The position numbers and the translations under genes are program-made. The notes under the pieces are model-generated. The model worked only from the letters and a program-made list of their open reading frames with translations, made no database searches and was not told the origin of the DNA. A stretch of 64,000 bases of DNA. Source: Hyperoodon ampullatus (Eukaryota; Chordata; Mammalia; Artiodactyla; Ziphiidae). The DNA lies in the NCBI GenBank assembly GCA_949752795.1, contig OX457074.1:30055980-30119979 (forward strand). Reading direction: 5' to 3'. Positions within the stretch are counted from its first letter, which is position 1, and the number at the start of each line of letters is the position of its first letter. Below, piece after piece: positions 4,358-54,500 of this stretch.

Positions 4358-4561
4358 ATTTTTTAAAAGATTTTTTTGTTTGTTTGTTTACGTGGTCCAT
4401 TTTTAAATTCTTTATTGAATTTGTTACAATATTGCTTCTTTTTTATGTTTTGGTTTTTTGGCCATGAGACATGTGGGATCTTAGCTCCCTGACCAGGGAT
4501 CAAACCTGCACCCCCTGCATTGGAAGGCAAAGTCTTAACCAGCAGACCACCAAGGAAGTCC
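4358..4561 (-). mobile_element. CHR-type SINE with a long atypical 3' part
   Basis: Minus-strand SINE whose head is at 4561 and whose tRNA-like body reaches back to about 4460. Beyond the body is a further 100-base A-rich 3' part (minus strand) before the (caaa)n end. The whole block is bounded by imperfect duplications: cttgacaataccg at 4345-4357 and cttgacaatactg at 4562-4574, one mismatch. That makes 4358-4561 one insertion event. Confidence 0.75.
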
Positions 4562-11501: not shown

Positions 11502-11529
11502 TTTTTTTTTTAAGATTTTCAAAAGAACA

Positions 11530-11535
11530 TTTATT
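11530..11535 (-). terminator. Poly(A) signal of the retrocopied RNA
   Basis: AATAAA on the minus strand, about 18 bases before the poly(A) tract at 11511-11502, a normal spacing for a cleaved and polyadenylated RNA. Confidence 0.8.
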
Positions 11536-11999
11536 TCTTAAAAGTTAACATGTGCATAATAGGAAACCAAAGAACACAAGAAGCAAAAAACAAAGTCATC
11601 CATCATCATAAGCAGTTTACCATTTGATTTGGCCTTCTAGGTCTCGTTTGTGTATTTAAATGCAACTAAGCGTCCATTTTTATGTAATTAAGATCATACA
11701 TTTATGTATCATGCTTTTTCACACATCATGAATATTTACCATTTCAAAGTCCCAAAGTTCTGAGTATTTTGATAACCAAAAATACTCTGCACCAACTCAA
11801 TCTGGAAGGAAAAAAAATGTAATCCTTTCTTGGTGACAAAAACTTCAGAAAAGACAAAAATGGCAACAGGCCTCTAGATAAAGATATTGGCAGAGTTATG
11901 ATTAAAATACTACATTCCCTTAACGTTCAATTAAAAATGAGATATAAAACAACACAGTACCCAAAGTAAAATGCTTTTAAGAGGATTCATTATCTGATC

Positions 12000-14900
12000 T
12001 ATACTATTAAAGTATTAGTAAGGAGGTATGTTTCCACTGAATTACTTAACAATATATTCCTATAGTACAGCTAAGAGATGCACACACATCAATGGTTATC
12101 ATCAAAATATAAAAAGGAACACATCCACATACTTCCCTTCCTTTTATACTTCCTTCTGCCCCTCTGCTGCCAACCTAATGAACAAGTCCTGGTGTACGTT
12201 TCTCAGATGGTTTAACAATTCCATGTCCAAGATGCTACTTTTTTATCAATTATAACAAAGATATTTACAAATTGGTTAATTCACTAGCTCTACTTTTTAT
12301 CATACATTATCACCTCAGGACTCCTAAAAAGCCTAGATGTTGCAAAATAATGAATGAACCTTGTCCATAAAAAGCATTGGTACTTTACAAAAATGCACAT
12401 TTTGACCTATGGTTATAACCTAAAACTGTCTTCTAGATATGGAGATATTAGCTAAGAGCCCTTCTCTTCACCATTCCTCTTACCCCTCCTCCAGCATATC
12501 AGCGACTAAGTACAGGACTATATCTAGCTCCAAGAGGTGGATAAACATAGACGCTCCCAGAAGACACAGCCCTTCCTAAAAACCAACAAAAGAGCACTTA
12601 TTACGGAATTATTTTACTACCTCTACTTTTAATACACTTTGGGCATTAGGACTTGCTTATTCTTTAATACACAGCAATATTAACTAAAACACACAAATAG
12701 AACAATGGTTAGACAATCTGAACTTGTCTAAAGACTCATGGGCACAGATCCCTTCTCTGTACTTCCTTCCCTGTCTGCTCCCCGCCTCCCCACCACCCAG
12801 TGAATAGTCAGCTTACTCTCCAAGACTCAAGTTTAACAATTTCCACTCCCCCAATACAAGCATTCCTATGAATTAACAGAAAAAAATACTTAAAATGCGT
12901 TACTTTTAACTCTCTACTTTCAACATATGTTGTGCACTTTTACACATCTAGAAAGATTAGATATTTCAAATACAGATTTAAGTGTGCCCACTATGTATAC
13001 ATGTAGTAGCACTGAAGAAACTGCACACAAAGGTTATAGTCACAAAGTGTCTCCTAAACAGGAACACTCTGTCCTAGAAGCTTCCCCTTCTCATCTCTAT
13101 CAACCCAGTGGACAAGAATAATAAGCATCTGTAATGCTTAGAGGGGATTTTAACAATTTTACTTCCTCCAGTTGTTTTCAGAAGTCTTTCCTATGAATTT
13201 TAACACAAAGTGTACACAATGTAGTTATCGGCTATTTTTGTCACACACTGGCAACTGCTTTAACACCTGGGAAGACGAGATGTTGTAGATTCGGACCTCT
13301 GTCCTTTATGTACACAGCCAAGTAAAACAAAACGCAGAGACGTAGCAGACAATGGTTAGTCTTGGTATAAAGCCCTTTACACTTTCTTCTTTCTCCCTGA
13401 AAATAATGTGTACTGCTCAGAGAGGCGGTTTGAGCATTTTGATCACTCCATTTCTAAAAGACAGTATTTCATATGAATTTTAACAAAAGGATATATCTAC
13501 AAAATATGTTACTTCACTACCTCTACTTTTAACATACTTTGTGCACTTCTACACATCTAGAAAGACTAGATGTTTCAAATAAGGACTTAAGTTTGTCCAC
13601 TATATACACAGTAGTGTTGAATAAACTACACACGTGTAACAATGGTTAGATCTGAAAGTGTCTTCTACATAGGAACATTCTAATCTAGAACACTTCGTTT
13701 CCCCCAGTACCTCCTTTCTGCCATCCATCCAACACTGGGCAAGTACAGGCACAGGTGTCACTTAGATGTGATTTACAATTTCACTCCAAAGGTCCTTTTC
13801 AGAAGACGGCCTTTCAGTGAATTTTAACACAAAGTGTACAAAATGTGTTAGTTTACTAACTCTACTTTTGTCATGCACTGGCAACCTCTTTAATATCTAG
13901 AGACTAGATATTATAAAATTGGGACCCATTGGTTCAGTATATACAAAATATATACAGTAAAGTTAAAAAAATGCAACATATAGAGCAATGGATAAGCTGA
14001 AATGTTGCAGTACCTGCTAGCAAAACATCTTTTGCAATCTTCCCTCCCACCTCCCTAAACCCAATGAACAAGCACAGAGTATACTGTTCAGAGAGGAGGT
14101 TTAACAATTCCATTTCCAAAGACTATTTCCCATCAATTTTTAAAAGCTATTTACAAGAATCATTATTCTACTAAAACTATTTTTAAATACATCAAGCACT
14201 TCTAAACATCTAGAAAGAATAGATATTTCATGTAAGAACTTACTTGTCCACTATGTACACAGCACTGTTAAATAAAATTGCACACATGTAACAATGGTTA
14301 TAATCTGAGGTGTCTTCTTAATATGGCCATTTTGGCCTGAACCATTTTCCTCCCTCACTTCCTTCTCTCCACCGCCAATGCAGTGGACAAGTACATGCAT
14401 GTGTAATGCCTAGAGGTGGTTGAACAAATTCATATCCAAAAATCATTTACAGAAGACAAGCTTTCCTATGAATTTCAATAAAGTGTACAAAATGTGCTAA
14501 TTTTACTACTTTGTCATACACTGGCAACCCCTTTAACATCTAGAGACTAGATGTTGCAAAGCTAGGACTCAATTTGTCCATTATATACACTATATACACA
14601 GCAAAACAAAATGAACATACAAAAATGGTTTTGTCTGAAAATGTCCAGGTATGAAGACACTAGCATATGACCTTTTGTAATTCTTTCCCTCCCTCCTCCA
14701 AACCACTGAACAAGTATAGACAATAGTATACTGCTCAGAGAGGTGGTTTAACATTTAACATTCCCAAAGACAGTACTTCCGATGAATTTTAGCAAAAAGA
14801 TATTTACAAAGTGATATTTTACTACGTCTACATTTAACATATGTTGGGCACTTCTAAACATCTAGATGGACTAGATGTTTCAAATAAGGACTTAATTTGT

Positions 14901-15880
14901 CCACTATATACAGAGGAGTACTGAATGAACTGCACACATGTAACAGTTATAATCTGAAAGTGTCTTCAAAATACCAGCATTCTAGCCATTCTAAGACCAA
15001 CTCCCTTCTCTCTCTCCCAGCTCCACCAACCCAGAGGGCTATAGTGCTCAAATTTTCAGAAGACAATCTTTCCTAAAAATTTTAACACAAAATGTACAAA
15101 ATGTATTATTTACTAACTCATTTTTGTCATACACTGGCAACCTCTAACATCTGGAAAGGCTAGGTGTTGCAAATTAGGACTCATTTGTCCATTATATACA
15201 CTATATATGCAGCAAAGTGAAACAAAATGCAGGAACATAAAAAAGACAATGGTTAATGTTGCCTCACTATAAACACACTGGCACAGAGCTCTTTGCACTT
15301 CCTTCTCCTCCCCCCGACCTTGAACCAGTGCACAAACAAACACAGTGCATACTGCATACTGTCCAAAAAGGTGGTTTGGCCACCCCTCCCCCCCCAAAAC
15401 AACATTTCATACGAATTTTAACAAAAAAGATATTTACAAAATGTCTTTTTACTACCTCTACTTTGAACATATATCAGGCACTTCAGAACTTCTAGAAAGA
15501 CTAGACATTAGTCTTTCTAATAATATATCTAAGACTAGATATATCTTCTAACTCTGACCAGTCTGGCATAGAAGCTTCTTTTCTTCCTCCTCAGCGTCTT
15601 CCATTCCATGTCCTCTGATCCACTGAACAAACGTGGACTTCTGTGGCTCCTGATGTCGCCTCCAGAAGTGGTCAAACAATTGCATTTCAAAAAGTCATTT
15701 CCAGAAGACATTTCTTTTCTATGGTGTTTTTAAAGAAACAAATGGGCATTTACAAGACATGTGACTTTAACTCTATCACACGTCGGCAACCTCTTCACAT
15801 CTAGAAGGCCTATATGTAGCAAAAATTTTTGAAAGGTTGGGGGGAAAGTTGAGAGCAGCTTTTTCATATTATATACACAG
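12000..15880 (-). repeat. Tandem array of ~320-bp NORAD-type units
   Basis: Diagnostic phrases recur at regular steps. Type A ('catctagaaagactagatgt' and variants) occurs near 12948, 13557, 14208, 14861 and 15489. Type B ('atctagagactagatgttgc' and variants) occurs near 13265, 13899, 14541, 15150 and 15800. Steps between neighbours are about 290-340 bases, and A and B alternate, giving a higher-order period near 640. Each unit also carries 'gaattttaac', 'tatttacaaaatgt', 'tgtccactatatacacag' and 'caatggtt' in the same order. Weaker units extend left to about 12000. About 11-12 subunits in all. Confidence 0.85.
12262..15877 (-). other. Cluster of 15 Pumilio response elements
   Basis: Perfect matches to UGUANAUA in the minus-strand RNA (tatNtaca on the given strand) begin at 12262, 13307, 13494, 13601, 13938, 13949, 14148, 14252, 14582, 14591, 14801, 14905, 15193, 15431 and 15870. 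Two are close pairs (13938/13949 and 14582/14591). I found none in the opposite orientation in this interval by eye. UGUANAUA is the established PUM1/PUM2 recognition element. A rough base-composition estimate predicts about one per 5 kb by chance. Confidence 0.85.
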
Positions 15881-16625
15881 GCCTTCTATAAACGGCCAGT
15901 AAATCTTCCCAAAGGGTAGTGGGCACTTCCTATGGGCTGCATGTGGTACGTTATTCTACCATTTCTATCTTCCGACATCGAGGTCTTGGTAGAATGACGA
16001 CCAACCGCCCGATGACCCACTAACATTGCACCCGTCGTCGACCAGGGCTCCGCTCACCATCCGGACCCGTTAAGGCCTTTGTCCGTCATTGTCCAGACGA
16101 GGTGAGGTCTCGTCCAACTGGGACAGAGAGGTCACCTCAGGTCCCGGATTGCGTGGGCTCCAAAGCCTAAGGGTGGCTGAGCTGGCGTCCATGTAAACTC
16201 GCCTTCCCGGGCCCTCGAGGCTCTAACGGCACTCCACAGGGTTCCAGTGGCCGCCATTCTTCTTGCCCTGCCACGCCCGATGCCCAAAGGCACCACGTCC
16301 TCAGTGGCCTGCCAGAGGCTTCGCCTAACCCCTGCAGCGTGGGGTCAGGAGACCCGGCGGTAGGTGGGATCTGGGCTCCAAGGGGCCACCGCCATTCGGT
16401 CACGGAGGTGGGGGTGGGGGAGCAGTTCATTGCTGCTTCCAGGCTCGGGCCCTGCCAGTGGGCGGCTGTGGCGAGGGCTCTGGGGCTCGACAAGACACAG
16501 CCTGATCCTGTCGCAGGGTACCCCCAATTCACCTGCCGACCGGAGGCCGGAGGGCCTAGAGGGCCCCGGGCTAGAAGGCCACGATCCGCTTCTCTCCACG
16601 ATCTCTGCCGGAACTGTGGCACAAC

Positions 16626-17160
16626 GTTTTTGAGGGCAATTAAAATTTTATATCTAAATAGTCTTCACCCCAAAAATCCCATTTCTAGATAACTATTCTA
16701 TAGAAATAAATGACCAGGCTCACAAAAACGCATGTACAAGGATATTCATTGAAGCAATGCAAGTAACAAGAAAACTGGACATAATCTAAACATCCTTCAA
16801 TAAGGACATTATTGAACCGTGATACATTCATACTATGGAATATTATGCAGGAGTTTAAATGAATGGGGTAACCCTCTATGTACTGGGAAGGAAAGAAATC
16901 TAAGACTTATCATGAAATGGAATCAAGTTGCAGGATGTTACTTATGTAAAAAAAGATAAGAAAAACACTCAAACCTCTTTTGCTATCTGTAAATATGTAT
17001 GTACTCAAACATATGGAAAAGAGTTTGGAAGGATTAATACTAAACTCAAAGTAGTGGCTGGGGGATTAAGGCACAAGGAGGGTTTTCACTATACCTGTTA
17101 TTTCATTGTTATATATTGAGAATATAATTGTGTATTACTTGTATAATGGAAAATAAGTTT
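16626..17160 (+). mobile_element. Old L1 relic, downstream half
   Basis: Continues the plus-strand L1 interrupted at 11501: 'ttcaccccaaaaatcccatt', 'acaaggatattcattgaagc', 'catactatggaatattatgc', then a decayed 3'UTR. No intact frame. Old age is shown by its divergence from the young L1s further along. Confidence 0.75.
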
Positions 17161-17330
17161 ACATTTTTTCTTACTGATTTTCAAGAGGTCCTGACAAACT
17201 TAATTTTTAAAATAAACACAGAATTTCAATCATTAGGTTGCTTTGGGATATGGAAGGGGAAATACCTTTTCTCACAGGTATTGACCTCAAAATTCTGGAC
17301 CAAGAAGGATCTTACAATGCAGTTAGCTTT

Positions 17331-18680
17331 GTTTTTTTTAAACATCTTTATTGGAGTATAATTGCTTTACAATGATGTGTTAGTTTCTGCTTTATAACAA
17401 AGTGAATCAGTTATACATATACATATGTTCCCATATCTCTTCTCCCTTGTGTCTCCCTCCCTCCCACACTCCCTATCCCACCCCTCTAGGTGGTCACATA
17501 CAACCTAGCTGATCTCCCTGTGCTATGCGGCTGCTTCCCACTAGCTATCTATTTTACGTTTGGTAGAGTATATGTGTCCATGCCACTCTCTCATTTTGTC
17601 ACAGCTTACCCTTCCCCCTCCCCATATCCTCAAGTCCATGCTCTAGTAGGTCTGTGTCTTTATTCCCATCTTACCCCTAGGTTCTTCATGACATTTTTTT
17701 TTCTTTTCTTAGATTCCATATATATGTGTTAGCATACGGTATTTGTTTTTCTCTTTCTGACTTACTTCACTCTGTATGACAGACTCTATGTCCATCCACC
17801 TCACTACAAATAACTCAATTTCCTTTCTTTTTATGGCTGAGTAATATTCCATTGTATATATGTGCCACATCTTCCTTATCCATTCACCTTTCGGGGGACA
17901 CTTAGGTTGATTCCATGTCCTGGTTATTGTAAATAGAGCTGCAATGAACATATTGGTACATGACTATTTTTGAATTATGGTTTGCTCAAGGTATATGCCT
18001 AGTAGTGGGATTGCTGGGTCATATGTTAGTTCTATTTGTAGTTTTTTAAGGAAGCTCCATACTGTTCTCCATAGTGGCTGTATCAATTTACATTCCCACC
18101 AACAATGCAAGAGTGTTCCCTTTTCTCCACACCCTCTCCAGCATTTATTGTTTCTAGATTTTTTGATGATGGCCATTCTGACCTGTGTGAGATGATATCT
18201 CATTGTAGTTTTGATTTGCATTTCTCTAATGATTAATGATGTTGAGCATTCTTTCATTTGTTTGCTGGCAATCTGTATATCTTCTTTGGCGAAGTGTCTA
18301 TTTAGGTCTTCTGCCTATTTTTGGATTGCGTTTTTTGTTTTTTTGTTATTGAGCTGCATGTGCTGCTTGGAAATTTTGGAGATTAATCCTTTGTCAGTTG
18401 CTTCATTTGCAAATATTTTCTCCCATTCTGAGGGTTGTCTTTTCGTTTTGTTGATGGTTTCCTTTGCTGTGCAAAAGCTTTTAAGTTTAATTATGTCCCA
18501 TTTGCTTATTTTTGCTTTTGTTTCTTTGGCCTTGGGAGACAGATCCAAAAAAATATTGTTATGATTTAAGTCAAAGCCTGTCCCGCCTATGTTCTCCTCT
18601 AGGAGTTTTATGGTTTCAGGTCTTACATTTAGGTCTTTAATCCATTTTGAGTCTAGTTTTGTATATGGTGTGAAGGGATA
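17331..18680 (-). mobile_element. 5'-truncated L1, minus strand
   Basis: The L1 3' end (T run at 17332-17339) runs through the 3'UTR into the ORF2 C-terminus. Open pieces are at 17709-17951 ('YTMEYYSAIKRKEIELF') and 17964-18257, which holds the Cys/His-rich C-terminal segment '[20 protein letters not shown]'. It is truncated at about 18680, after 'cattttgagtctagttttgt'. No clear duplication was found. It is somewhat different in sequence from the two full-length L1s here, so it is probably a different subfamily. Confidence 0.9.
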
Positions 18681-23610: not shown

Positions 23611-23835
23611 AGCAAATCATCCCAAATTGAGGAAGTGGACTTTGAGGACAAGATTTAAGACTTTCCCCCCTTTTCCTCTTTTTACAACGAATTATCCCGA
23701 ATTACGGAGGTGGACTTAGAGAGCAAGATTTCAGAATTCTCGCCCTTTTCCTCTTTTTACAACGAATTATCCCAAATTGAGGAGGTGGACTTGGAGAGCA
23801 AGATTTTTGATTTTTCCCCCTGTTCTCTTTTTGTG
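23611..23835 (+). repeat. Triplicated ~75-bp unit in L1 5'UTR
   Basis: Three head-to-tail units start near 23611, 23688 and 23763. Each has 'atcccaaattgagga' or a close variant, 'gtggactt', 'gcaagatt' (or 'acaagatt'), a C/T run and 'ctctttttacaa' or a variant. The corresponding part of L1 copy 2 (about 42240-42310, minus strand) has only one unit. Confidence 0.85.
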
Positions 23836-23989: not shown

Positions 23990-24440
23990 CTGCTCTTTCT
24001 TTTCTCCCTACCTTCCCGTCCTCCCTCCCTCCCTCTGCCCCTCCTTTCCTTCTTTCGCTCTTTCTTTCCTTCCTCCCTCCCTGGTTCCTTTCACTCTTTC
24101 TTTTTCTTTCCTTCCTCCCTCCCTTCCTCACTCCCTCCCACCCTTCTTCCTTTCACTTTCTTTTTCATTCCTCCCTCCCTCCCTCCCTCCTGTCTTTCAT
24201 TCTTTCTTTCTTTCCTTCCTCCCTCACTCCCTTCTTCCATCCACTCTTCCTTTTTCTTTCATTCTTCCTTCCATCCCTCCTTTCTTTCTTTCTTTCTTTC
24301 CATCCTTCCTCCCTGCCTCCCTCCTTTCTTACTTTCTTTCTTTCCATCCTTCCTCCTTCCCTCCCTCCTTTCTTTCTTTCTTCCTACCTTCCTTCCTTTC
24401 TTTCCTTCTTCCTTTCTTTCTCTCTCTCTTTCTTTCTTCT
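23990..24440 (+). repeat. (CCTT)n-type polypyrimidine tract in L1 5'UTR
   Basis: About 450 bases composed almost only of C and T, built from ccttcctccctccctc-like and tttctttc-like blocks. L1 copy 2 has only a short purine-rich counterpart on the given strand (about 41995-42065), so the tract has expanded here. It gives a meaningless Ser/Phe/Pro-rich open frame. Confidence 0.9.
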
Positions 24441-24979
24441 ACTAATTCTTTCTTTCTACTTTTTCTCCCTTTTATTCTGAGCCGGGTAGATGAAAGGCTC
24501 TTGGTGCTGCAGCCAGGAGTCAGTGCTGTGCCTCTGAAGTGGGAGAGCCAACTTCAGGACACGGGTCCACAAGAGACCTCCCAGCTCCACATAATATCAA
24601 GTGGCGAAAATCTCCCAGAGATCTCCATCTCAACACCAGCACCCAGCTTCAGCCAACGACCAGCAAACTACAGTGCTGGTCACCATATGCCAAGCAACTA
24701 GCACGGCAGGAAAACAACCCCACCCATTAACAGAGAGGCTGCCTAAAAACATAATAAGGCCACAGGCACCCCAAAACACACCAACAGACGTGGAACTGTC
24801 CACCAGAAAGACAAGATCGAGCCTCAACCACCAGAACACAGGCACTAGTCCACCCCACGAGGAAGCCTACACAACTTACTGAAACAACCTTAGCCACTGG
24901 GGACAGACACCAAAAACAACGGAAAATACGAATCTGCAGCCTGCAAAGACGAGACCCCAAACACAGTAAGATAAGCAAA

Positions 24980-25892
24980 ATGAGAAGACAAAAAACACAC
25001 AGCAGGTGAAGGAGCAAGATAAAAACCCACCAGACCTAACAAATGAAGAGATAATACGCAGTCTACCTGAAAAAGAAATCAGAATAATGATACTAAGATG
25101 ATCCAAGATTCTATTTCCAAGATCCAAAATCTTGGAAATAGAATAGACAAAATGCAAGAAACAGTTAACAAGGACCTAGAAGAACTAAAGATGAATCAAG
25201 CATCGATTAAAAACACAATAAATGAAATGAAAAATACTCTAGATGGGATCAATAGCAGAATAACTGAGGCAGAAGAACGGATAAGTGACGTGGAAGATAA
25301 AATAGTGGAAATAACTGATGCAGAGCAAAATAAAGAAAAAAGAATGAAAAGAACAGAGGACAGTCTCAGAGACCTCTGGGACAACATTAAATGCACCAAC
25401 ATTCGAATTATAGAGGTTCCAGAAGAAGAAGAGAAAAGGAAAGGGACTGAGAAGATATTTCAAGAGATTATAGTTGAAAACTTCCCTAATATGGGAAAGG
25501 AAATAGTTAATCAAGTCCAGGAGGCACAGAGAGTCCAATACAGAATAAATCCAAGGAGAAAAACGCCAAGACACATATTAATCAAACTGTCAAAAATTAA
25601 ACACAAAGAAATCATATTAAAAGCAGCAAGGGAAAAACAACAAATAACACACAAGGGAATCCCCATCAGGTTAACAGCTGATCTCTCAGCAGAAACTCTA
25701 CAAGCCAGAAGGGAGTGGCAGGACATAATTAAAGTGATGAAGGAGAGAAACCTGCAACCAAGATGACTCTACCCAGCAAGGATCTCATTCAGATTTGATG
25801 GAGAAATTAAAATCTTTACAGACAAGCAAAAGCTGAGAGAGTTCAGCACCACCAAACCAGCTTTACAACAAATGCTAAAGGAACTTCTCTAG
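24980..25892 (+). pseudogene. L1 ORF1 (RNA-binding chaperone), broken
   Basis: ORF1p is the trimeric RNA-binding chaperone that coats L1 RNA. The start ATG at 24980 opens 'MRRQKTHSR' and meets a stop at once. A frameshift continues as 'KEQDKNPPDLTNEEIIRSLP', then a TGA near 25099 coincides with a templated insertion (25108-25144). The long open part 25098-25766 holds the coiled coil (heptad-like 'AEERISDVEDKIVEITDAEQ'), then the RNA-recognition region and the C-terminal domain ('VQYRINPRR', 'ILIKLSKIKHKEIILKAARE'). A TGA at 25764 is followed in frame by 41 open codons ('LYPARISFRFDGEIKIFTDK' onward) up to TAG at 25890. Copy 2 has the same TGA. Confidence 0.9.
25108..25144. repeat. Perfect 16-bp inverted repeat, 5-base loop
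   Basis: attctatttccaagat (25108-25123) is the exact reverse complement of atcttggaaatagaat (25129-25144), with ccaaa between. L1 copy 2 has only the right arm at the matching place, so the left arm is a templated insertion made from the neighbouring sequence. Confidence 0.9.
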
Positions 25893-25950
25893 GCAAGAAA
25901 CACAACAGAAGGAATATACCTACAATAACGAATCCAAAGCAATTAAGGAA

Positions 25951-28900
25951 ATGGGAATACGAACATACATATCGATAATTACCTTAGATGTAAATGGACT
26001 AAATGCTCCCATCAAAAGACACAGATTGCCTGAATGGATACAAAAACAAGACCCATATATATGCTGTCTACAAGAGACCCACTTCAGACCTAGAGACACA
26101 TACAGATTGAAAGTAAGGGGATGGAAAAAGATATTCCATGCAAATGGAAATCAAAAGAAAGCTGGAGTAGCAATGCTTATATCAGACAAAATAGACTTTA
26201 AAATAAAGACTATTAGAAGAGACAAAGGACACTACATAATGATCAAGGGATCGATCCAAGAAGAAGATATAACAATTGTAAATATTTATGCACCCAACAT
26301 AGGAGCACTTCAAAACATAAGGCAAATACTAACAGCCATAAAAGGGGAAATCGACAGTAACACACTCATAGTAGGGGACGTTAACACCCCACTTTCACCA
26401 ATGGACAGATCATCCAAAATGAAAATAAATAAGGAAACACAAGCTTTAAATGATACATTAAACAAGATGGACTTAACTGATATTTATAGGACATTCCATC
26501 CAAAAACAACAGAATACACATTTTTCTCAAGTGCTCATGGAACATTCTCCAGGATAGATCATATCTTGGGTCACAAATCAAGCCTTGGTAAATTTAAGAA
26601 AATTGAAATTGTATCAAGTATCTTTTCCGACCACAATGCTATGAGACTAGACATCAATTACAGGAAAAGATCTGTAAAAAATACAAACACATGGAGGCTA
26701 AACAATACACTACTCAATAACGAAGTGATCACTGAAGAAATCAAAGAGGAAATTTAAAAATACCTAGAAACAAATCACAGTCGAGACACGACGACCCAAA
26801 TCCTATGGGACGCAGCACAAGCAATTCTAAGGGGGAAGTTTATAGCAATACAATCCCACCTTAAGAAACAGGAAACATCTCGAGTAAACAACCTAACCCT
26901 GCACCTAAAGCAATTAGAGAAAGAAGAACAAAAAACCCCAAAGCTAGCAGAAGGAAAGAAATCATAAAGATCAGATCAGAAATAAATGAAAAAGAAATGA
27001 AGGAAATGATAGCAAAGATCAATAAAACTAAAAGCTGGTTCTTTGAGAAGATAAACAAAATTGACAAACCATTAGCCAGACTCATCAAGAAAAAGAGGGA
27101 GAAGACTCAAATCAATAGAATTAGAAATGAAAAAGGAGAAGTAAAAACTGACACTGCAGAAATACAAAAGGTCATGAGAGATTACTACAAGAAACTCTAT
27201 GCCAACAAAATGGACATCCTGGAAGAAATGGACAAATTCTTAGAAATGCACAACCTGCCAAGACTGAATCAGGAAGAAATAGAAAATATGAACAGACCAA
27301 TCACAAGCACTGAAATTGAAACTGTGATTAAAAATCTTCCAACAAACAAAAGCCCAGGACCAGATGGCTTCACAGGCGAATTCTATCAAACACTTAGAGA
27401 AGAGCTAACACCTATCCTTCTCAAACTCTTCCAAAATATAGCAGAGGGAGCAGCACTCCCAAACTCATTGTACGAGGTCACCATCACCTTGATACCAAAA
27501 CCAGGCAAGGATGTCACAAAGAAAGAAAACTACAGGCCAATATCACTGATGAACATAGATGCAAAAATCCTCAACAAAATACTAGCAAACAGAATCCAAC
27601 AGCACATTAAAAGGATCATACACCATGATCAAGTGGGGTTTATTCCAGAAATGCAAGGATTCTTCAATATATGCAAATCAATCAATGTGATACACCATAT
27701 TAACAAGTTGAAGGAGAAAAACCATATGATCATCTCAATAGATGCAGAGAAAGCTTTCGACAAAATTCAACACCCATTTATGATAAAAACCCTGCAGAAA
27801 GTAGGCATAGAGGGAAATTTCCTCAACATAATAAAGGCCATATATGACAAACCCACAGCCAACATTGTCCTCAATGGTGAAAAACTGAAACCATTTCCAC
27901 TAAGATCAGGAACAAGACGAGTCTGCCCACTCTCACCACTCTTATTCAACCTAGTTTTGGAAGTTTTAGCTACAGCAATCAGAGAAGAAAAGGAAATAAA
28001 AGGAATCCAAATTGGAAAAGAAGAAGTAAAGCTGTCACTGTTTGCAGATGACATGATACTATACATAGAGAATCCTAAAGATGCTACCAGAAAACTACTA
28101 GAGCTAATCAATGAATTTGGTAAAGTAGCAGGATACAAAATTAATGCACAGAAATCTCTGGCATTCCTGTACACTAATGATGAAAAATCTGAAAGTGAAA
28201 TCAAGAAAACACTCCCATTTACCATTGCAAAAAAAAGAATAAAATATCTAGGAATAAACCTACCTACGGAGACAAAAGACCTGTATGCAGAAAATTATAA
28301 GACACTGATGAAAGAAATTAAAGATGATACAAATAGATGGAGAGATATACCATGCTCCTGGATTGGAAGAATCAATATTGTGAAAATGACTCCACTACCC
28401 AAAGCAATCTACAGATTCAATGTAATCCCTATCAAACTACCACTGGCATTTTTCACAGAACTAGAACAAAAAATTTCAAAATTTGTTTGGAAAAACAAAA
28501 GACCCCGAATAGCCAAAGCAATCTTGAGAACGAAAAACGGAGCTGGAGGAATCAGGCTCCCTGACTTCAGACTATACTACAAAGCTACAGTAATCAAGAC
28601 AGTGTGGTACTGACACAAAAACAGAAAGATAGATCAATGGAACAGGATAGAAAGCCCAGAGATAATCCCACGCACATATGGTCAACTTATGTTTGATAAA
28701 GGAGGCAGGAATGTACAATGGAGAAAGGACAGCCTCTTCAATAAGTGGTGCTGGGAAAACTGGACAGGGACATGTAAAAGTATGAGATTAGATCATTCCC
28801 TAACACCATACACAAAAATAAGCTCAAAATGGATTAAAGACCTAAATGTAAGGCCAGAAACTATCAAAGTCTTGGAGGAAAACATAGGCAGAACACTCTA

Positions 28901-29765
28901 TGACATAAATCACAGCAAGATCCTTTTGGACCCACCTCCTAGAGAAATGGAAATAAAAACAAAGATAAACAATTGGGACCTAATGAAACTTTGAAGCTTT
29001 TGCACAGCAAAGGAAACCATAAACAAGACCAAAAGACAACCCTCAGAATGGGAGAAAATATTTGCAAATGAAGCAACTGACAAAGGATTAATCTCCAAAA
29101 TTTATAAACAGCTCATGCAGCTCAATAGCAAAAAGACAAACAACCCAATCCAAAAATGGGCAGAAGACTTAAATAGGCATTTCTCCAAAGGAGATATACA
29201 GACTGCCAACAAACACATGAAAGAATGCTCAACATCATTAATCATTAGAGAAATGCAAATCAAAACTACAATGAGATATCATCTCACACCAGTCAGAATG
29301 GCCATCATCAAGAAATCTAGAAACAATAAATGCTGGAGAGGGTGTGGAGAAAAGGGAACACTCTTGTGCTGCTGGTGGGAATGTGATTGGTACAGCCACT
29401 ATGGAGAACAGTAGGGAGATTCCTTTAAAACTAAAAATAGAACTACCACATGACCCAGCAATCCCACTACTAGGCATATACCCTGAGAAAACCATAATTC
29501 AAAAAGAGACATGTATCAAAATGTTCACTTCAGCTCTATTCACAATAGCCCGGAGCTGGAAACAACCTAAGTGTCCATCATCGGATGAATGGATAAAGAA
29601 GATGTGGCACATATATACAATGGAATAATACTGAGCCATAAAAAGAAATGAAACTGAGCTATTTGTAATGAGGTGGATAGACCTAGAGTCTGTCATACAG
29701 AGTGAAGTAAGTCAGAAACAGAAAGACAAATACCGTATGCTAACACATATATATGGAATTTTTAA
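25951..29765 (+). pseudogene. L1 ORF2 (endonuclease-reverse transcriptase), broken
   Basis: ORF2p nicks target DNA and reverse-transcribes L1 RNA. The start codon at 25951 opens the apurinic-like endonuclease: 'NGLNAPIKRHR', 'CCLQETHF', 'VGDVNTPLSPMDRSS', 'IDHILGH' and 'SDHNAMRLD' are present in order up to a TAA at 26755. A frameshift precedes the reverse-transcriptase part (26997-28613), with '[15 protein letters not shown]' and the catalytic 'LFADDMILY'. Further lesions: TGA in 'WY*' at 28611, TGA at 28992, and stops or shifts from 29412 on. The C-terminal Cys-rich segment is at about 29330-29390. There are at least five inactivating changes. Confidence 0.95.
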
Positions 29766-30149
29766 AAAAGATGTCATGAAGAACCTAGGGGTAAAACGGG
29801 AATAAAGACACAGACCTACTTGAGAATGGACTTGAGGATATGGGGAGGGGGAAGGGTAAGCTGTGACAAAGCGAAGGAGAGGCATGGACATATATACACT
29901 ACCAAACGTAAGGTAGATAGATAGTGGGAAGCAGCCGCAGTGCACGGGGAGATCAGCTTGGTGCTTTATGACCGCCTGGAGGGGTGGGATGGGGAGGGTG
30001 GGAGGGAGGGAGATGCATGAGGGAAGGGATGTGGGAACAGATGTATATGTATGACTGATTCACTTTGTTATAAAGCAGAAACTAATAAAGAAATTTTAAA
30101 AAATAAAAAAAATAAAAAAGGAAGAACAGGCCAGTGTGGGAAACATTAA

Positions 30150-36117: not shown

Positions 36118-36465
36118 TTTTTTTTTTCTTTCATTATTTTCTGTTTTATAACAAAGTGAATCAGTCATACATATACATCTGTTCCCACATCCCTTCTCTC
36201 ATGCATCTCCCTCCCTCCCACCCTCCCCATCCCTCCCTCCAGGCGGTCACAAAGCACCGAGCTGATCTCCCTGTGCTCTGCGGCTGCTTCCCACTATCTA
36301 TCTACCTTACGTTTGGTAGTGTATATATGTCCATGCCTCTCCTTCGCTTTGTCACAGCTTACCCTTCCCCCTCCCCATATCCTCAAGTCCATTCTCAAGT
36401 AGGTCTGTGTCTTTATTCCCGTTTTACCCCTAGGTTTTTCATGACATTTTTTTTTAATTCCGTAT

Positions 36466-39400
36466 ATATGTGTTAGCATACGGTATTTGTCTTTCTGTTT
36501 CTGACTTACTTCACTCTGTATGACAGACTCTAGGTCTATCCACCTCATTACAAAGAGCTCAGTTTCGTTTCTTTTTATGGCTGAGTAATATTCCATTGTA
36601 TATATGTGCCACATCTTCTTTATCCATTCTTCCGATGATGGACACTTTGGTTGTTTCCAGCTCCGGGCTATTGTGAATAGAGCTGAAGTGAACATTTTGA
36701 TACATGTCTCTTTTTGAATTATGGTTTTCTCAGGGTATATGTCTAGTAGTGGGATTGCTGGGTCATGTGGTAGTTCTATTTTTAGTTTTTAAAGGAACCT
36801 CCCTACTGTTCTCCATAGTGGCTGTACCAATCACATTCCCACCAGCAGCACAAGAGTGTTCCCTTTTCTCCACACCCTCTCCAGCATTTATTGTTTCTAG
36901 ATTTCTTGATGATGGCCATTCTGACTGGTGTGAGATGATATCTCATTGTAGTTTTGATTTGCATTTCTCTAATGATTAATGATGTTGAGCATTCTTTCAT
37001 GTGTTTGTTGGCAGTCTGTATATCTCCTTTGGAGAAATGCCTATTTAAGTCTTCTGCCCATTTTTGGATTGGGTTGTTTGTTTTTTTGCTATTGAGCTGC
37101 ATGAGCTGTTTATAAATTTTGGAGATTAATCCTTTGTCAGTTGCTTCATTTGCAAATATTTTCTCCCATTCTGAGGGTTGTCTTTTGGTCTTGTTTATGG
37201 TTTCCTTTGCTGTGCAAAAGCTTCGAAGTTTCATTAGGTCCCAATTGTTTATCTTTGTTTTTATTTCCATTTCTCTAGGAGGTGGGTCCAAAAGGATCTT
37301 GCTGTGATTTATGTCATAGAGTGTTCTGCCTATGTTTTCCTCCAAGACTTTGATAGTTTCTGGCCTTACATTTAGGTCTTTAATCCATTTTGAGCTTATT
37401 TTTGTGTATGGTGTTAGGGAATGATCTAATCTCATACTTTTACATGTCCCTGTCCAGTTTTCCCAGCACCACTTATTGAAGAGGCTGTCCTTTCTCCACT
37501 GTACATTCCTGCCTCCTTTATCAAACATAAGTTGACCATATGTGCGTGGGATTATCTCTGGGCTTTCTATCCTGTTCCATTGATCTATCTTTCTGTTTTT
37601 GTGTCAGTACCACACTGTCTTGATTACTGTAGCTTTGTAGTATGGTCTGAAGTCAGGCAGCCTGATTCCTCCAGCTGCTTTTTTGTTCTCAAGATTGCTT
37701 TGGCTATTTGGGATCTTTTGTTTTTCCAAACAAATTTTGAAATTTTTTGTTCTAGTTCTGTGAAAAATGCCAGTGGTAGTTTGATAGGGATTACATTGAA
37801 TCTGTAGATTGCTTTGGGTAGTGGAGTCATTTTCACAATATTGATTCTTCCAATCCAGGAGCATGGTATATCTCTCCATCTATTTGTATCATCTTTAATT
37901 TCTTTCATCAGTGTCTTATAAGTTTCTGCATACAGGTCTTTTGTCTCCTTAGGTAGGTTTATTCCTAGATATTTTATTCTTTTTTTTGCAATGGTAAATG
38001 GGAGTGTTTTCTTGATTTCACTTTCAGATTTTTCATCATTAGTGTACAGGAATGCCAGAGATTTCTGTGCATTAATTTTGTATCCTGCTACTTCACCAAA
38101 TTCATTGATTAGCTCTAGTAGTTTTCTGGTAGCATCTTTAGGATTCTCTATGTATAGTATCATGTCATCTGCAAACAGTGACAGCTTTACTTCTTCTTTT
38201 CCAATTTGGATTCCTTTTATTTCCTTTTCTTCTCTGATTGCTGTGGCTAAAACTTCCAAAACTAGGTTGAATAAGACTGGTGAGAGTGGGCAGCCTTGTC
38301 TTGTTCCTGATCTTAGTGGAAATGGTTTCAGGTTTTCACCATTGAGGACGATGTTGGCTGTAGGTTTGTCGTATATGGCCTTTATTATGTTGAGGAAATT
38401 TCCCTCTATGCCTACTTTCTGCAGGGTTTTTATCATAAATGGGTGTTGAATTTTGTCAGAAGCTTTCTCTGCATCTATTGAGATGATCATATGGTTTTTC
38501 TCTTTCAATCTGTTAATATGGTGTATCACGTTGATTGATTTGTGTATATTGAAGAATCCTTGCATTCCTGGAATAAACCCCACTTGATCATGGTGTATGA
38601 TCCTTTTAATGTGTTGTTGGATTCTGTTTGCTAGTATTTTGTTTAGGATTTTTGAATCTATGTTCATCAGTGATATTGGCCTGTACTTTTCTTTCTTTGT
38701 GACATCCTTGCCTGGTATTTTTATCAAGGTGATAGAGGCCTTGTAGAATGAGTTTGGGAGTGTTCCTTCCTCTGCAGTTTTTTCGAAGAGTCTGAGAAGT
38801 ATGGGTATTACCTCTTCTCTAAGTGTTTGATAGAATTCGCCTGTGAAGCCATCTGGTCCTGGGCTTTTGTTTGTTGGAAGATTTTTAATCACAGTTTCAA
38901 TTTCAGTGCTTGTTATTGGTCTAGTCATATTTTCTATTTCTTCCTGATTCAGTCTTGGCAGGTTGTGCATTTCTAAGAATTTGTCCATTTCTTCCAGGTT
39001 GTCCAATTTATTGGCATAGAGTTTCTTGTAGTAATCTCTCATGATCTTTTGTATTTCTGCAGTGTCAATTGTTACTTCTCCTTTTTCATTTCTAATTCTA
39101 TTGATTTGAGTCTTCTCCCTTTTTTTCTTGATGACTCTGGCTAACGGTTTATCAATTTTGTTTATCTTCTCAAACAACCAGCTTTTAGTTTTATTGATCT
39201 TTGCTATCGTTTCCTTCATTTCTTTTTCATTTATTTCTGATCTGATCTTTATGATTTCTTTCCTTCTGCTAACTTTGGGGGTTTTTTGTTCTTCTTTCTC
39301 TAATTGCTTTCGGTGCAGAGTCAGGTTGTTTACTCGAGATGTTTCCTGTTTCTTAAGGTGGGATTGTATTGCTATCTACTTCCCCCTTAGAACTGCTTTT

Positions 39401-40500
39401 GCTGCGTCCCATAGGTTTTGGGTCATCGTGTCTCCATTGTCATTTGTTTCTAGGTATTTTTTATTTCCTCGTTGATTTCCTCAGTGATCACATCATTATT
39501 AAGTAGTGTATTGTTTAGCCTCCATGTGTTTGTATTTTTTACAGATCTTTTCCTGTAATTGATGTCTAGTCTCATAGCATTGTGGTCAGAAAAGATACTT
39601 GATACAATTTCAATATTCTTAAATTTACCAAGGCTTGATTTGTGACCCAAGATATGATCTATCCTGGAGAATGTTCCATGAGCACTTGAGAAAAATGTGT
39701 ATTCTGTTGTTTTTGGATGGAATGTCCTATAAATATCAATTAAGTCCATCTTGTTTAATGTATCATTTAAAGCTTGTGTTTCCTTATTTATTTTCATTTT
39801 GGATGATCTGTCCATTGGTGAAAGTGGGGTGTTAACGTCCCCTACTATGAGTGTGTTACTGTCGATTTCCCCTTTTATGGCTGTTAGTATTTGCCTTATG
39901 TTTTGAAGTGCTCCTATGTTGGGTGCATAAATATTTACAATTGTTATATCTCCTTCTTGGATCGATCCCTTTATCATTATGTAGTGTCCTTCTTTGTCTC
40001 TTCTAATAGTCTTTATTTTAAAGTCTATTTTGTCTGATATAAGAATTGCTACTCCGGGCTTCCCTGGTGGCGCAGTGGTTAAGAGTCTGCCTGCCGATGC
40101 AGGGGACACGGGTTCGTGCCCCGGTCTGGGAAGATCCCACATGCCGCAGAGCGGCTAGGCCCGTGAGCCATGGCGCTGAGCCTGCGCGTCCGGAGCCTGT
40201 GCTCTGCAAGGGAAGAGGCCACAACAGTGAGAGGCCCGCCTACCGCAAAAAAAAAAAAAAAAAAAAAAAAAAAAGAATTGCTACTCCAGCTTTCTTTTGA
40301 TTTCCATTTGCATGGAATATCTTTTTCCATCCCCTTGCTTTTAATCTGTATGGGTCTCTATGTCTGAAGTGGGTCTCTTGTAGACAGCATATATATGGGT
40401 CTTGTTTTTGTATCCATTCAGCCAATCTGTGTCTTTTGATGGGAGCATTTAGTCCATTTACATTTAAGGTAATTATCAATATGTATGTTCCTATTCCCAT
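36466..40500 (-). pseudogene. L1 ORF2 (copy 2), split by a SINE and broken
   Basis: Opens at 40500 with 'MGIGTYILIITLNVNGLNAP' and is cut at 40287 by a SINE. Without the SINE and its duplication (232 bases) the frame continues into 40040-39450, which holds 'VGDVNTPLSPMDRSS', 'IDHILGH' and 'SDHNAMRLD'. A one-base loss in an A run near 39450 shifts the frame. The reverse-transcriptase part is open at 39219-37624 ('[15 protein letters not shown]', '[13 protein letters not shown]', 'LFADDMILY'). Pieces at 37528-36803 and 36695-36294 continue in other frames. This copy keeps the conserved Gln-Gly after 'GTR', where copy 1 reads Arg-Val. Confidence 0.95.
40056..40272 (+). mobile_element. CHR SINE inserted in L1 endonuclease domain
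   Basis: Head 'gggcttccctggtggcgcag', complete body and a ~25-base A tail. A perfect 15-bp duplication, aagaattgctactcc, lies at 40041-40055 and 40273-40287. The insertion postdates L1 copy 2. It is close in sequence to the SINE at 7625-7833. Confidence 0.95.
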
Positions 40501-40561
40501 TTCCTTAATTGTTTTGGGTTCCTTATTGTAGGTATTTTTCTTCTGTTGTGTTTCTTGTCTA

Positions 40562-41452
40562 GGGAAGTTCCTTTAGCATTTGTTGTAAAGCTGGTTTGGT
40601 GGTGCTGAACTCTCTCAGCTTTTGCTTGTCTGTAAACGTTTTAATTTCTCCATCAAATCTGAATGAGATCCTTGCTGGGTAGAGTCATCTTGGTTGCAGG
40701 TTTTTCTCCTTCATCACTTTAATTATGTCCTTCCACTCCCTTATGGCTTGTAGAGTTTCTGCTGAGAGATCAGCTGTTAACCTGATAGGGATTCCCTTCT
40801 GTGTTATTTGTTGTTTTTCCCTTGCTGCTTTTAATATGATTTCTTTGTGTTTAATTTTTGACAGTTTGATTAATATGTGTCTTGGCGTATTTCTCCTTGG
40901 ATTTATTCTGTATTGGACTCTCTGTGCCTCCTGGACTTGATTAACTATTTCCTTTCCCATATTAGGGAAGTTTTCAACTATAATCTCTTCAAATATTTTC
41001 TCAGTCCCTTTCCTTTTCTCTTCTTCTTCTGGAACCTCTATAATTCGAATGTTGGTGTGTTTAATGTTGTCCCAGAAGTCTCTGAGACTGTCCTCTGTTC
41101 TTTTCATTCTTTTTTCTTTATTTTGCTCTGCATCAGTTATTTCCACTATTTTATCTTCCACGTCACTTATCCGTTCTTCTGCCTCAGTTATTCTGCTATT
41201 GATCCCATCTAGAGTATTTTTCATTTCATTTATTGTGTTTTTAATCGATGCTTGATTCATCTTTAGTTCTTCTAGGTCCTTTTTAACTGTTTCTTGCATT
41301 TTGTCTATTCTATTTCCAAGATTTTGAATCATCTTTACTATCATTATTCTGAATTCTTTTTCAGGTAGCCTGCCTACTTACTCTTCGTTTGTTAGGTTTG
41401 GTGGGTTTTTACCTTGTTCCTTCATCTGCTGTGTGTTTTTCAGTCTTCTCAT
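40562..41452 (-). pseudogene. L1 ORF1 (copy 2), nearly open with two stops
   Basis: ATG at 41452-41450 starts 'MRRLKNTQQMKEQGKNPPNL'. Codon 25 is TAA, then the frame stays open through the coiled coil and RNA-binding domains to TGA at 40687-40685. It continues without a stop for 41 more codons ('LYPARISFRFDGEIKTFTDK' onward) to TAG at 40561-40559. The TGA is at the same place as in copy 1, while the TAA is not, so the TGA is shared and the TAA private. Confidence 0.9.
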
Positions 41453-43476
41453 TTTGTTTATCTTACTGTATTTGGGGTCTCCTTTTTGCAGGCTGCAGGT
41501 TCATAGTTCCTGTTGTTTTTGCTGTCTGTCGCCATTGGCTAAGGTTTGTTCAGTGGGTTTGTAGGCTTCCTGGTGGAGGGGACTAGTGCCTGTGCTCTGG
41601 TGGATGAGGCTGGATCTTATTTTTCTGGTGGGCAGGTCCATGTCTGGTGGTGTGTTTTGGGGTGTCTGTGGCCTTATTATGATTTTAGGCAGCCTCTCTG
41701 CTAATGGGTGGCGTTGTGTTCCTGTCTTGCTAGTTGTTTGACATAGGGTGTCCAGTACTGTAGCTTGCTGGTCATTGAGTGAAGCTGTGTCTTGGTGTTG
41801 AGATGGAGATCTCTGGAAGGTTTTCCCCATTTGATATTAAGTCGAGCTGGGAGGTCTCTTGTGGACCAGTGTCCTGAAGTTGGCTGTCCCACCTCAGAGG
41901 CACAGCACTGACTCCTGGCTGCAGCACCAAGAGCCTTTCATCCACACAGCTCAGAATAAAAGGGAGAAAAAGTAGAAAGAATGAATTACTAATAGTAGTA
42001 GTAGAAGAAGAAGGAGAAGGAGAGGAGAAGGAGAGAGAGAGAAAGAGAGAATGAAAGAAAGAAGATACAGTAAAATAAAATAAAATAAGATAAAATAAAA
42101 TAAAATTATTAAAATAAAAAATAATTATTAAGAAAAAAAAATTTTTTAAACCGGATGGATAGAACCCTAGGACAAATTGTGGAAGCAAAGCTATACAGAC
42201 AAAATCTCACATGGAGGCATCAACATACACACTCACAAAAAGAGGAAAAGGGGAAAAAATCATAAATCTTGCTCTCAAAGTCCACCTCCTCAATTTGGGA
42301 TGATTCGTTGTCTATTCATGTATTCCACATTTGCAGGGTACATCAAGTGATTGTGGAGCTTTAATATGCTGCTTCTGAGGCTGCTGGGGGAGACCTCCCT
42401 TTCTCTTCTTTGTTCTCACAGCTCCCGGGGCTCAGCTTTGGATTTGGCCCCGCCTCTGTGTGTAGGTCACAGGAGGGCATCTGTTCATCTCTCAGACAGG
42501 ACAGGGTTAAAGGAACAGCTGCTTCGGGGACTCTGGCTCACTCAGGCCGGGGGCAGGGAGGGGTACGGAGTATCAGGAGAGCCTGCGGCGGCAGAAGCTG
42601 GCGTGACATTGCACCAGCCTGAGGCGCACCATGCGTTCTCCCGGGGAAGTTGTCCCTAGATCCCGGGACCCTGGCAGTGGCAGGCTGCACAGGTTCCCCG
42701 GAAGGGTGTTGTGGATAGTGACCTGTGCTCACACACAGGCTTCTTGGTGGCAGCAGCAGCAGCCTTAGTGTCTTATGCCCATTTCTGGGGTCCGCGCTTT
42801 TAGCCGTGGCTCGTGCCCGTCTCTGGAGCTCTTTTAAGCAGCGCTCTGAACCCCCTCTCCTCTAGCACCAGGAAACAAAGAAGGAAGAAAAAGTCTCTTG
42901 TCTCTTCATCAGGTCCAGACTTTTCCCTGGACTCCCTCCCGACTAGCCGTGGTGCACTAATCCCTGCAGGCTGTGTTCACGCCACCAACCCCAGTCCTCT
43001 TCCTGAGCTCCGACCGAAGCCCAGGCCTCAGTTCCCAGCCCTGCCCGCCCCGGCGGGCGAGCAGACAAGCCTCTGGGGCTGGTGAGTGCTGGTCGGCACC
43101 GATCCTCTGTGCGGGAATCTCTCCACTTTGCCCTCCGCACCCCTGTTGCTGTGCTCTCCTCCATGGCTCCGAAGCTTTCCCCCTCCACCACCCACAGTCT
43201 CCGCCCACGAAGGGGCTTCCTAGTATGTGGAAACCTTTCCTTCTTCACAGCTTCCTCCCACTGGTGCAGGTCCCGTCCCTATTCTTTTGTCTCTGTTTAT
43301 TCTTTTTTCGTTTGCCCTACCCCGGTACATGGGGAGTTTCTTGCCATTTGGGAGGTCTGAGGTCTTCTGCCAGCATTCAGTAGGTGTTCTGTAGGAGTTG
43401 TTCCACATGTAGATGTATTTCTGGTGTATCTTTAGAGGGTGCCTGTGCTGGCCCACTAGTTGCTGTCACCATCCTG

Positions 43477-51570: not shown

Positions 51571-54500
51571 TCTTACATGATGGTGAAGGTGCCGTTGTAG
51601 GTGTTAGGCTCTGGCTCAGGCACTCTGTGGAGCTTCTGCTTTGGGCTGAGACCAACACACGACAGCGTCTCATTTGTGCAGGTACAGAGCTCACATAAGC
51701 TGATGTTTGTGGTGGCATTCTGTTCTGGCTGCTTCTTTTCTGGGGTATATTTTACACCAGGAAGGCCTGTGGATACTGAACACTGAGTTGAAGGAAAAAG
51801 AACTGTCTCAGATGGCCTTGGTTGCTGAGATGTGTTAACTCCCAGGTCCACAGGTGGAACTGTGACTTGAGTCAGGTTTGGTTGTGCAAGTGTCACCTCA
51901 GGGTGTTTTGGTGGGGGAGCTGTAGGGATGTAGAATGTCCAGCCTCCATAGTGGGTTCTGGAGTTGTGGTTTGCTCTAGGTCCACATGATGAACTGTGAC
52001 GCTGGATGATGTTGAATACTGACCTTGATCCTTCCTTGGAGTTGGAACTGTCACCTCCTGCTGGAATGGAAATTGAACTACAATGCCCTGAGGTGTCTCT
52101 AGAGGCTGAGTTTAGGTCTCCTGCATGATTGGAGAAGGTACAGTCTCCATATTGGATCCTGTAGTAACAGTAAGTTCCACATCCTTAGGTTGAATTGTGA
52201 CTTGAGTCAGGTTTGGCTGTGCAAGTGTCACCTCAGGGTGTTTTGGAGGGAGAGCTGTAGTCTTCTGCAGGGCTGTAGAAAGTTCAGACTCTGTAGTAGG
52301 TTCTGGAGTTGCGGTAAGCTCCAGGTCCAAAGATTTAACTGTGATACTGGGTTATGTTGGATGCTCAGCATGATCCTGATCTGGTGTTGGAACTACTGGC
52401 TTCTGATATACTGGAGGCTGAGCTACAAAAACCTCCTTAGGTGGTTCTGGAGGCTGGATTAAGGTCCCCTGCATGGTTGGAGAGGGTTCATCCTCCTTAG
52501 TGGGTTCTGGCTTTATGGTCAGTTCAAGGTCCAAAGGTTGAAGTGTGACCTCAGTCAAGGTTGGATGCTGAGCCTGAACTTGCTCTGGATTTGGAAATGT
52601 CACCTCGGGGTATGTTGGAGGAACTGCAGTCTGCTGCAGGGCTGCGGAATGTTCAGCCTCCATTGTAGGTTCTGGAGCTGTGGGAAGCCCCTGGTCCAAA
52701 GGTTTAACTGTGACACTGGGCATGTTTGAATGCTGTGCTTGATCCTGTCCTAGCGTTGGAACTGTCATCTCATAATGCACTGGAGTTTGTGCTACAACCT
52801 CCTTAGGTGGCGCTGGAGGCTGAGTGGGGCCTCCTGCTCGGCTGGATACGGTTCTGTCTCTTTAAGGGGTTCCAGAGGTAGGTCTGGGAACTCTGTTGGA
52901 CTGGAGAAGATTCCATATTCTCAGGGAGCTGTAGAAGCTGAGGAAGGGTCCCTTGAGGGACTGGAAATGGTTCCACTTATGCAGGGAGCTCTGATGACTG
53001 AGCCTGAAGCTCCTGCTGTGTGGGAGAAGGTACCACCTCCTTAGGGGGCTCAGGAGATGTAGCTGAGTCCCGCTGGGTAACTGGAGACTGAGCTGGGGCC
53101 TGCTCCTGGACTAAAGAAAGCTCTATCCTTCCAGGGGGATCTGGAGTCTGAGTAGGGTCCTCCTGATGCACTGGAGGATGTTCAACCTCTTTAGTGGGCT
53201 CTAGAGTTAAGATAACTGCCAGACCCATGGGTTTAACTGTGATATTAGGCAACACTGGATGTTCAACTCCCCTGGACTGAGAGGTGAGAATGTCACTTCA
53301 TTATGCACTGAAGGTTCAGCTGCACCATCTGTAGAGGCCCCTGGAGGCTGAGTTGGGTGCTGATGCTGGACTGGAGAAGGTCCAACCCACTCAGTGTGCT
53401 TTGGATGCTGAGCTGGGCTCTCCTGCTGGCTTGGAGAAGGTTCAGTTTCCTCAGGAAGCTCTTCAGGTTGAGTTGGGGCTCCCTGCTGAACTGGAGAAGG
53501 TTCAACATTTTCAAAGGGGGTTGGATGCTGATCTGAAACCTCTTGCCAGACTGACAAAGGTTCCAACTGCTCAGGGGACACTGTAGACTGAGCCGAGGTT
53601 TCTTGTTGAGGTGGAAAAGTTCCAACCTCATTAGTGAACGCTGGAGTTACGATAAGTGCGAGATCCACAGGTTTAACAGTGGCATCGTGCCGCGGAAGAA
53701 GCTGAGCTTGATCCTGACCAAGAGGAGAAACTGTTGTCACAGGATGCTCTGGAGAGAAAACTAGTCACATTAGAGAGCTCTAGAGACTGAGTTGGATAGG
53801 ATTCAAACTCACCAGGAGACTCTGCATGCTGAGCTGTGGCTTCCTGCTGAGGTGGAGAAGGTACAACCTCAGGAGCCTGTGGATGCTGATCTGGAGTCTC
53901 CTGCTGGCTTGTGGCAGGTATAACTTCTTCTCCAGAATGCTCTGGATACTGAGCTAGGGTCTCCTCTTGTACTGAAGATTTATTATGTGTACCGGCTTCT
54001 GGAGATTGGGCTGGAGCCTCCTGTTGAACTGGCAAAGTTTCAACCTCCTCAGGTGGCTGTGAAGGCAGCGTGGGGGCCTCATGCTGGGTTGTAGAAAATT
54101 CTGCATTAGTAAGGGGCACTGAGGACTGAGCTGAAGGCTTGTGCTGATTTGGAGAACGTTCCACCTCTGGAGTGGGTTCTTTTGTTATGTAAGCTCCACA
54201 TTTGCAGGTTTGACAGTGACATTGGATGTTTAAATGCTTAGCATGAGGGTGACTTGGAGGTGGAACTGTCATTTCCTGTTGTCTGGAGCTTGAGCTGGCT
54301 GTCCCTGTTGAGTTGGAGAAGGTTCCACCTCCCCTGAAGAAGGCTCTGGAGTCTGAGCAGGTTGCTCCTGCAGGGTTGCAGAAGGTTCTATCTCCACTGG
54401 AGACAGAGCTGGGATCCCCTGCTCGGTTGGAGAAGATTCTGCCTCATTAGTGGGCTCTGGAGACTGAGCTGAGGCTTTCTCCTGGGTTGCAGAAGTTTCA

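Follow-up and report, generated by a model that had tools for sequence, protein, structure and literature searches.

The question raised by the minus-strand element at 11502-16615 of the 64-kb window (the whole stretch of DNA that was analysed) is whether it is the NORAD gene of the species or a copy of its transcript and, if a copy, whether it could still act. The evidence makes it very probable that the locus is a near-full-length processed (retroposed) pseudogene, most likely made by L1, of NORAD, an lncRNA that is unspliced and polyadenylated. The insert comprises 5,114 bases and, read on the minus strand from 16615 to 11502, begins with a GC-rich head, continues with tandem repeats in its middle, and ends with the polyadenylation signal AATAAA (11535-11530) and a tail of ten A (11511-11502). 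Directly after the A run lies the 3' copy of a target-site duplication, GTTGTGCCA (11501-11493, minus strand; possibly reaching to 11507, into the A run). The 5' copy is found on the same strand at 16625-16617, possibly extended to 16631 as AAAAACGTTGTGCCA, and one C (16616), which can be assigned either to the insert or to the flank, separates it from the insert head. The preliminary description had given the span as 11502..16616; the insert itself stands, with 16615 used here as its end and the C at 16616 treated as ambiguous. The duplication is 9 bp long and exact, or 15 bp long with one mismatch if the A run is counted, and in the 64 kb, read on both strands, the 9-mer occurs twice, both times at the insert ends. 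In L1-mediated processed retrocopies, the target-site duplication measures roughly 7-20 bp. The nick site deduced from the duplication, TTTTT/GA on the other strand, lies in the known range of the L1 endonuclease. Two hallmarks of an L1 retrocopy are seen here, a target-site duplication at both ends and a 3' poly(A) following a polyadenylation signal.

The third hallmark, interruption of a pre-existing sequence, was found by joining the flanks of the insert at one repeat copy and aligning them to a provisional L1 3'-end consensus, one not drawn from a database. Joined, the flanks scored 267, the single flanks 163 and 118, the best of 100 shuffles 46, and the reverse complement 27; with a second provisional L1 variant, the corresponding scores were 170 for the joined flanks, 102 and 81 for the single ones, 54 for the shuffles, and 29 for the reverse complement. 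The two halves join, on the provisional consensus, at the repeat GTTGTGCCA: the 5' part of the older, 3'-end type L1 begins at 16840 and runs to 16632, and the aligned stretch of its 3' part covers 11492-11312, both on the minus strand. Since the joined flanks align continuously to the L1 3' end, the NORAD copy, as judged by this provisional consensus, appears to interrupt one older L1. The poly(A) with its AATAAA, the 9-bp duplication confined to the insert ends, and the splitting of an older L1 had all been claimed in the preliminary description, and all three were borne out, the last against the provisional consensus.

The 5' end of the copy is CpG-island-like (15864-16615, minus strand, by GC content and CpG observed/expected ratio). 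Its first 715 nt have a GC content of 0.63 and a CpG ratio of 0.66, compared with a CpG ratio of 0.255 for the whole window. CpG is found there 46 times against 69.8 expected, TpG 49 times against 40.9, and CpA 42 times against 42.8; the sign of CpG decay is weak and one-sided. The 200-bp windows passing the CpG criterion extend to 16706, all of them overlapping the copy, and a looser criterion gives 15 runs in the 64-kb window, two inside the copy. Either the insertion is fairly recent, or the copy was kept unmethylated. The CpG-rich end and the near-full length could also be expected if the locus were the species' own parental NORAD gene and no copy at all. NORAD is unspliced (PMC4947167), and therefore intron loss cannot discriminate a retrocopy, so the missing introns are no argument against such a gene. 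Nevertheless, this locus is flanked by a target-site duplication and an A tail and sits within one continuous L1, and between 10501 and 18600 every CpG-rich window overlaps the insert, i.e., no promoter-side island was seen. It is thus very improbable that this is the parental gene.

Whether the retroposed sequence is indeed NORAD was addressed by short oligos, with published human oligos used as stand-in samples of human NORAD sequence. Every distinct NORAD/HCG11 oligo, 14 in total, was taken from excerpts of PMC7976429, PMC10471651, PMC8805945, PMC8973981, PMC4947167, and PMC8301222; the controls were 32 oligos for other genes, a subset of those printed in excerpts of five oligo-source papers and of PMC7368683 and PMC7962263. 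Eight of the 14 score 13-20 in the insert, above all 32 controls (control maximum 12), which shows sequence homology of the kind expected in the NORAD family. Outside the insert (58.9 kb), single control oligos reach up to 15; the three oligos scoring 13-15 are therefore weak singly, and no control in the whole window reaches the 16-20 of the other five. Two NORAD primer pairs are convergent in the insert, at 639-734 and 4382-4444 in insert coordinates. The reverse primer of the first pair matches at 20 of its 21 bases; in the second, the common reverse primer (27 nt) has a mismatch-free alignment of 20 nt, and the forward primer facing it (25 nt) aligns over 15 nt.

The remaining six oligos do not exceed the controls in the insert, four scoring 12 and two lower. 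One of the four tied at 12 is plausibly placed, on the right strand and just past the primer pair at 4382-4444; two match the wrong strand, and the fourth is distant from its partner primer. The CRISPRi guide, the forward cloning primer, and the reverse cloning primer score 10, 9, and 12 in the insert (control maximum 12) and 11, 11, and 10 in the rest of the window. The guide and the forward cloning primer share sequence and count as one spot, taken as the start of the human gene; the two wrong-strand ties include the reverse cloning primer. Such a lack of matches is expected if the transcript alone was copied, and divergence at these places would account for it too. It bears on a DNA-level (segmental) duplication of the NORAD locus, with which the near-full length would agree; in addition to the oligos at the human NORAD borders having no match above controls, the borders of the insert are a poly(A) end and a target-site duplication, and such a duplication is improbable in the extreme. 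Other searches returned nothing further. A gapped DNA pattern that combined two pieces of NORAD primers matched 0 stretches in viral_contigs and 0 in genome_contigs, and therefore gave no stray mammalian NORAD for comparison; the excerpt of PMC8882980 contains no NORAD oligo. Rfam at gathering thresholds gave no match in the 64-kb window. When the insert's 5' frame (16167-16610) was searched against proteins, it yielded 196 candidates, 0 of them at E 0.001 or better, and Pfam gave no match for the frame 16167-16664.

The internal organization of the insert is a second line of evidence for NORAD, whose central ~3.5 kb is described as a series of 12 units of ~300 nt that carry Pumilio sites and stem-loops (Tichon et al., 2016; PMC4947167). 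A core motif derived from the insert itself was searched against 20 shuffles and the rest of the window. Eleven unit cores score above the shuffles (tandem-unit region 12305-15821, minus strand), starting at 15821, 15512, 15171, 14882, 14558, 14230, 13915, 13577, 13287, 12968, and 12344, i.e., with spacings of 309, 341, 289, 324, 328, 315, 338, 290, 319, and 624 bases, and their starts cover 3,477 bases. The cores score 15-33, the shuffles at most 14 (n=20), and the rest of the window at most 15; with its score of 15, the core at 13915 exceeds the shuffles and does not exceed the rest-of-window maximum. Nine further matches scoring 9-11 were discarded as background. The 624-base gap contains, near 12650, a degenerate unit-like stretch with no hairpin and with unit-like sequence on both sides. 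A perfect hairpin with a stem of at least 8 lies at the core in four of the 11 units (14880, 14555, 13913, and 13573), and one more overlaps the 15512 core; eight such hairpins occur in the insert vs 17 in the remaining 58,886 bases. Two characteristics of the NORAD family are accordingly found in the insert: a central ~3.5 kb of about 12 tandem ~300-nt units, represented by 11 cores, and stem-loops of 8-9 base pairs.

So is a high density of Pumilio sites. Fifteen UGUANAUA Pumilio response elements are located at 12262-15877 on the minus strand, which is the NORAD sense, with first bases at 15877, 15438, 15200, 14912, 14808, 14598, 14589, 14259, 14155, 13956, 13945, 13608, 13501, 13314, and 12269. 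All 15 are in sense and 0 in antisense orientation; 500 shuffles gave a mean of 0.66 and a maximum of 4, and outside the insert the two strands of the window together (117,772 bases) have 23. Under the motif UGURUAUA, the insert has 11 overlapping or eight non-overlapping sites. For human NORAD, 17 non-overlapping UGURUAUA sites (PMC4947167) and “at least 15” canonical Pumilio sites, with 16 in HCG11 (PMC7976429), are reported. The Pumilio sites of the copy are well preserved under UGUANAUA and fewer under UGURUAUA, and the eight vs 17 in human would fit either decay or a parent with fewer sites. Of the 12 unit stretches examined, four (15512, 12968, 12650, and 12344) have no UGUANAUA, which the parent may lack there too. 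The preliminary description had named the repeat architecture, the length, the 5' sequence, and the Pumilio sites as pointing to NORAD, and had proposed a retrocopy of it. The 11 cores, spaced by 289-341 bases except for one interval of 624, can be set beside the 12 units reported, the 15 sense UGUANAUA far exceed the shuffle mean, and the oligos, the 12-unit layout, the Pumilio sites, and the hallmarks of retroposition agree with one another.

If the copy arose as proposed, a germ-line NORAD transcript would have been captured by the L1 machinery, and target-primed reverse transcription would have started from the poly(A) tail at the A-rich nick, TTTTT/GA on the other strand, inside the older L1. 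The insertion would then have been completed with a short target-site duplication, and the promoter side of NORAD would have been left behind. The insert, its tail, its duplication, the L1 split by it (on the provisional consensus), and the NORAD-like sequence are direct observations; L1 proteins as the agent, the NORAD locus as the donor, and the loss of the promoter are what they suggest. Tichon et al. (2016; PMC4947167) suggested that the large number of NORAD pseudogenes is due in part to high expression in germ cells.

The surroundings of the NORAD copy are made up of LRRC37-family and L1 sequence. Several frames of LRRC37-family coding sequence occur at 51573-55662 on the minus strand, where Pfam PF15779 (LRRC37 family) is matched on that strand with E 1.7e-55 at 52352-52861 and 1.9e-15 at 53207-53764 and, just below the cut-off, with 8.2e-06 at 53673-54443. 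Four other of the seven frames tested in this region had no Pfam match, and the sequence is possibly a degenerate copy. A pattern for LRR-like exons, by which the copy might have been placed within an LRRC37 gene, gave three loose matches on the minus strand, one in an L1 reverse transcriptase and one with a stop. Two L1s face each other at 24370-30093 and 36125-42063; they share 96.9% identity over 3.9 kb (26164-30093 vs 36125-40055) and 91.7% over 1.8 kb, and have frames free of stops, 582 and 583 residues long, that contain a reverse transcriptase domain. Of seven frames scanned besides those of the LRRC37 region, three have this domain, and in NCBIfam, three of five L1-region frames matched a reverse transcriptase model, all below the cut-off. 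Just upstream of the copy (17328-18679) lies another partial L1, whose identity to other L1s of the window is 87.5-89.0%. A 75-bp tandem repeat of 2.9 copies (23615-23832) is followed by a pyrimidine-rich repeat (24040-24457). Words belonging to SINEs of even-toed ungulates and whales are present in the window, and one BovB word is absent from it, which gives at most a hint of such an origin.

The remaining question is whether the copy still acts. Most likely, it makes no RNA of its own and is silent and functionless today. If it were transcribed, its RNA should bind Pumilio via the remaining sites, by analogy with NORAD. A transcribed copy, with its start perhaps in the CpG-rich 5' end or in an element close by, could serve as a second Pumilio decoy, as raised in the preliminary description and speculated for human HCG11; the GC content and CpG ratio of the first 715 nt relative to the window speak for this, as do the number of UGUANAUA elements, comparable to the count of canonical sites in human NORAD (PMC7976429), and the precedent of HCG11, an NORAD pseudogene expressed at a level about 20-fold below that of NORAD (PMC4947167). 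Nevertheless, a recent insertion explains the same features, and recent age accounts for the CpG-rich head and the intact Pumilio sites as well as function does. Moreover, the long human pseudogenes other than HCG11 are apparently not expressed (Tichon et al., 2016; PMC4947167), the unit near 12650 has no hairpin, and four of the 12 unit stretches have no UGUANAUA, although the parent may be without them as well. A transcribed decoy is therefore quite unlikely. Little probability is likewise given to the more specific proposal that the copy carried along the transcribed half of the NORAD CpG island, escaped methylation, and became a lineage-specific second Pumilio decoy that raises the Pumilio-buffering capacity of the species, in parallel to HCG11. 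Expression shown by reads unique to the copy would raise its importance, because NORAD is thought to act through the number of Pumilio sites offered. With the silent copy as the favored reading, a well-preserved NORAD pseudogene is a warning for read mapping, and the Norad mouse study planned its read mapping around NORAD pseudogenes (PMC6407921). The copy would also become a datable marker if the empty site turned up in relatives.

The novelty implied in the preliminary description is not upheld, and the idea of a categorically new event was rejected: NORAD pseudogenes are already in print, as a “large number ... throughout mammalian genomes” (PMC4947167) and a “high number” in human and mouse (PMC6407921). 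These were the only two papers returned by a literature search for NORAD-pseudogene phrases, and the titles and abstract openings found for NORAD pseudogenes in cow and pig and for retrocopies and lncRNAs mention no locus of this kind. The copy resembles NORAD (LINC00657; 5,339 nt in human, PMC7976429) in its 12-unit layout, Pumilio sites, hairpins, and polyadenylation signal, whereas it differs in lying inside an L1, in being flanked by a target-site duplication, and in that no promoter-side CpG island was seen. HCG11, at human 6p22.2 and 91% identical to NORAD with its 16 Pumilio sites (PMC7976429), is likewise a long NORAD-related copy rich in such sites; however, HCG11 is expressed, whereas the present copy is known from its sequence, and the two are presumably independent insertions. 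A further comparison is with the mammalian NORAD pseudogenes, four of which in human are more than 90% identical over more than 4 kb (PMC4947167). They share with the present element the nature of a long NORAD transcript copy away from the home locus and differ from it in genome and locus; the present copy is one more NORAD pseudogene of a kind already known in mammals.
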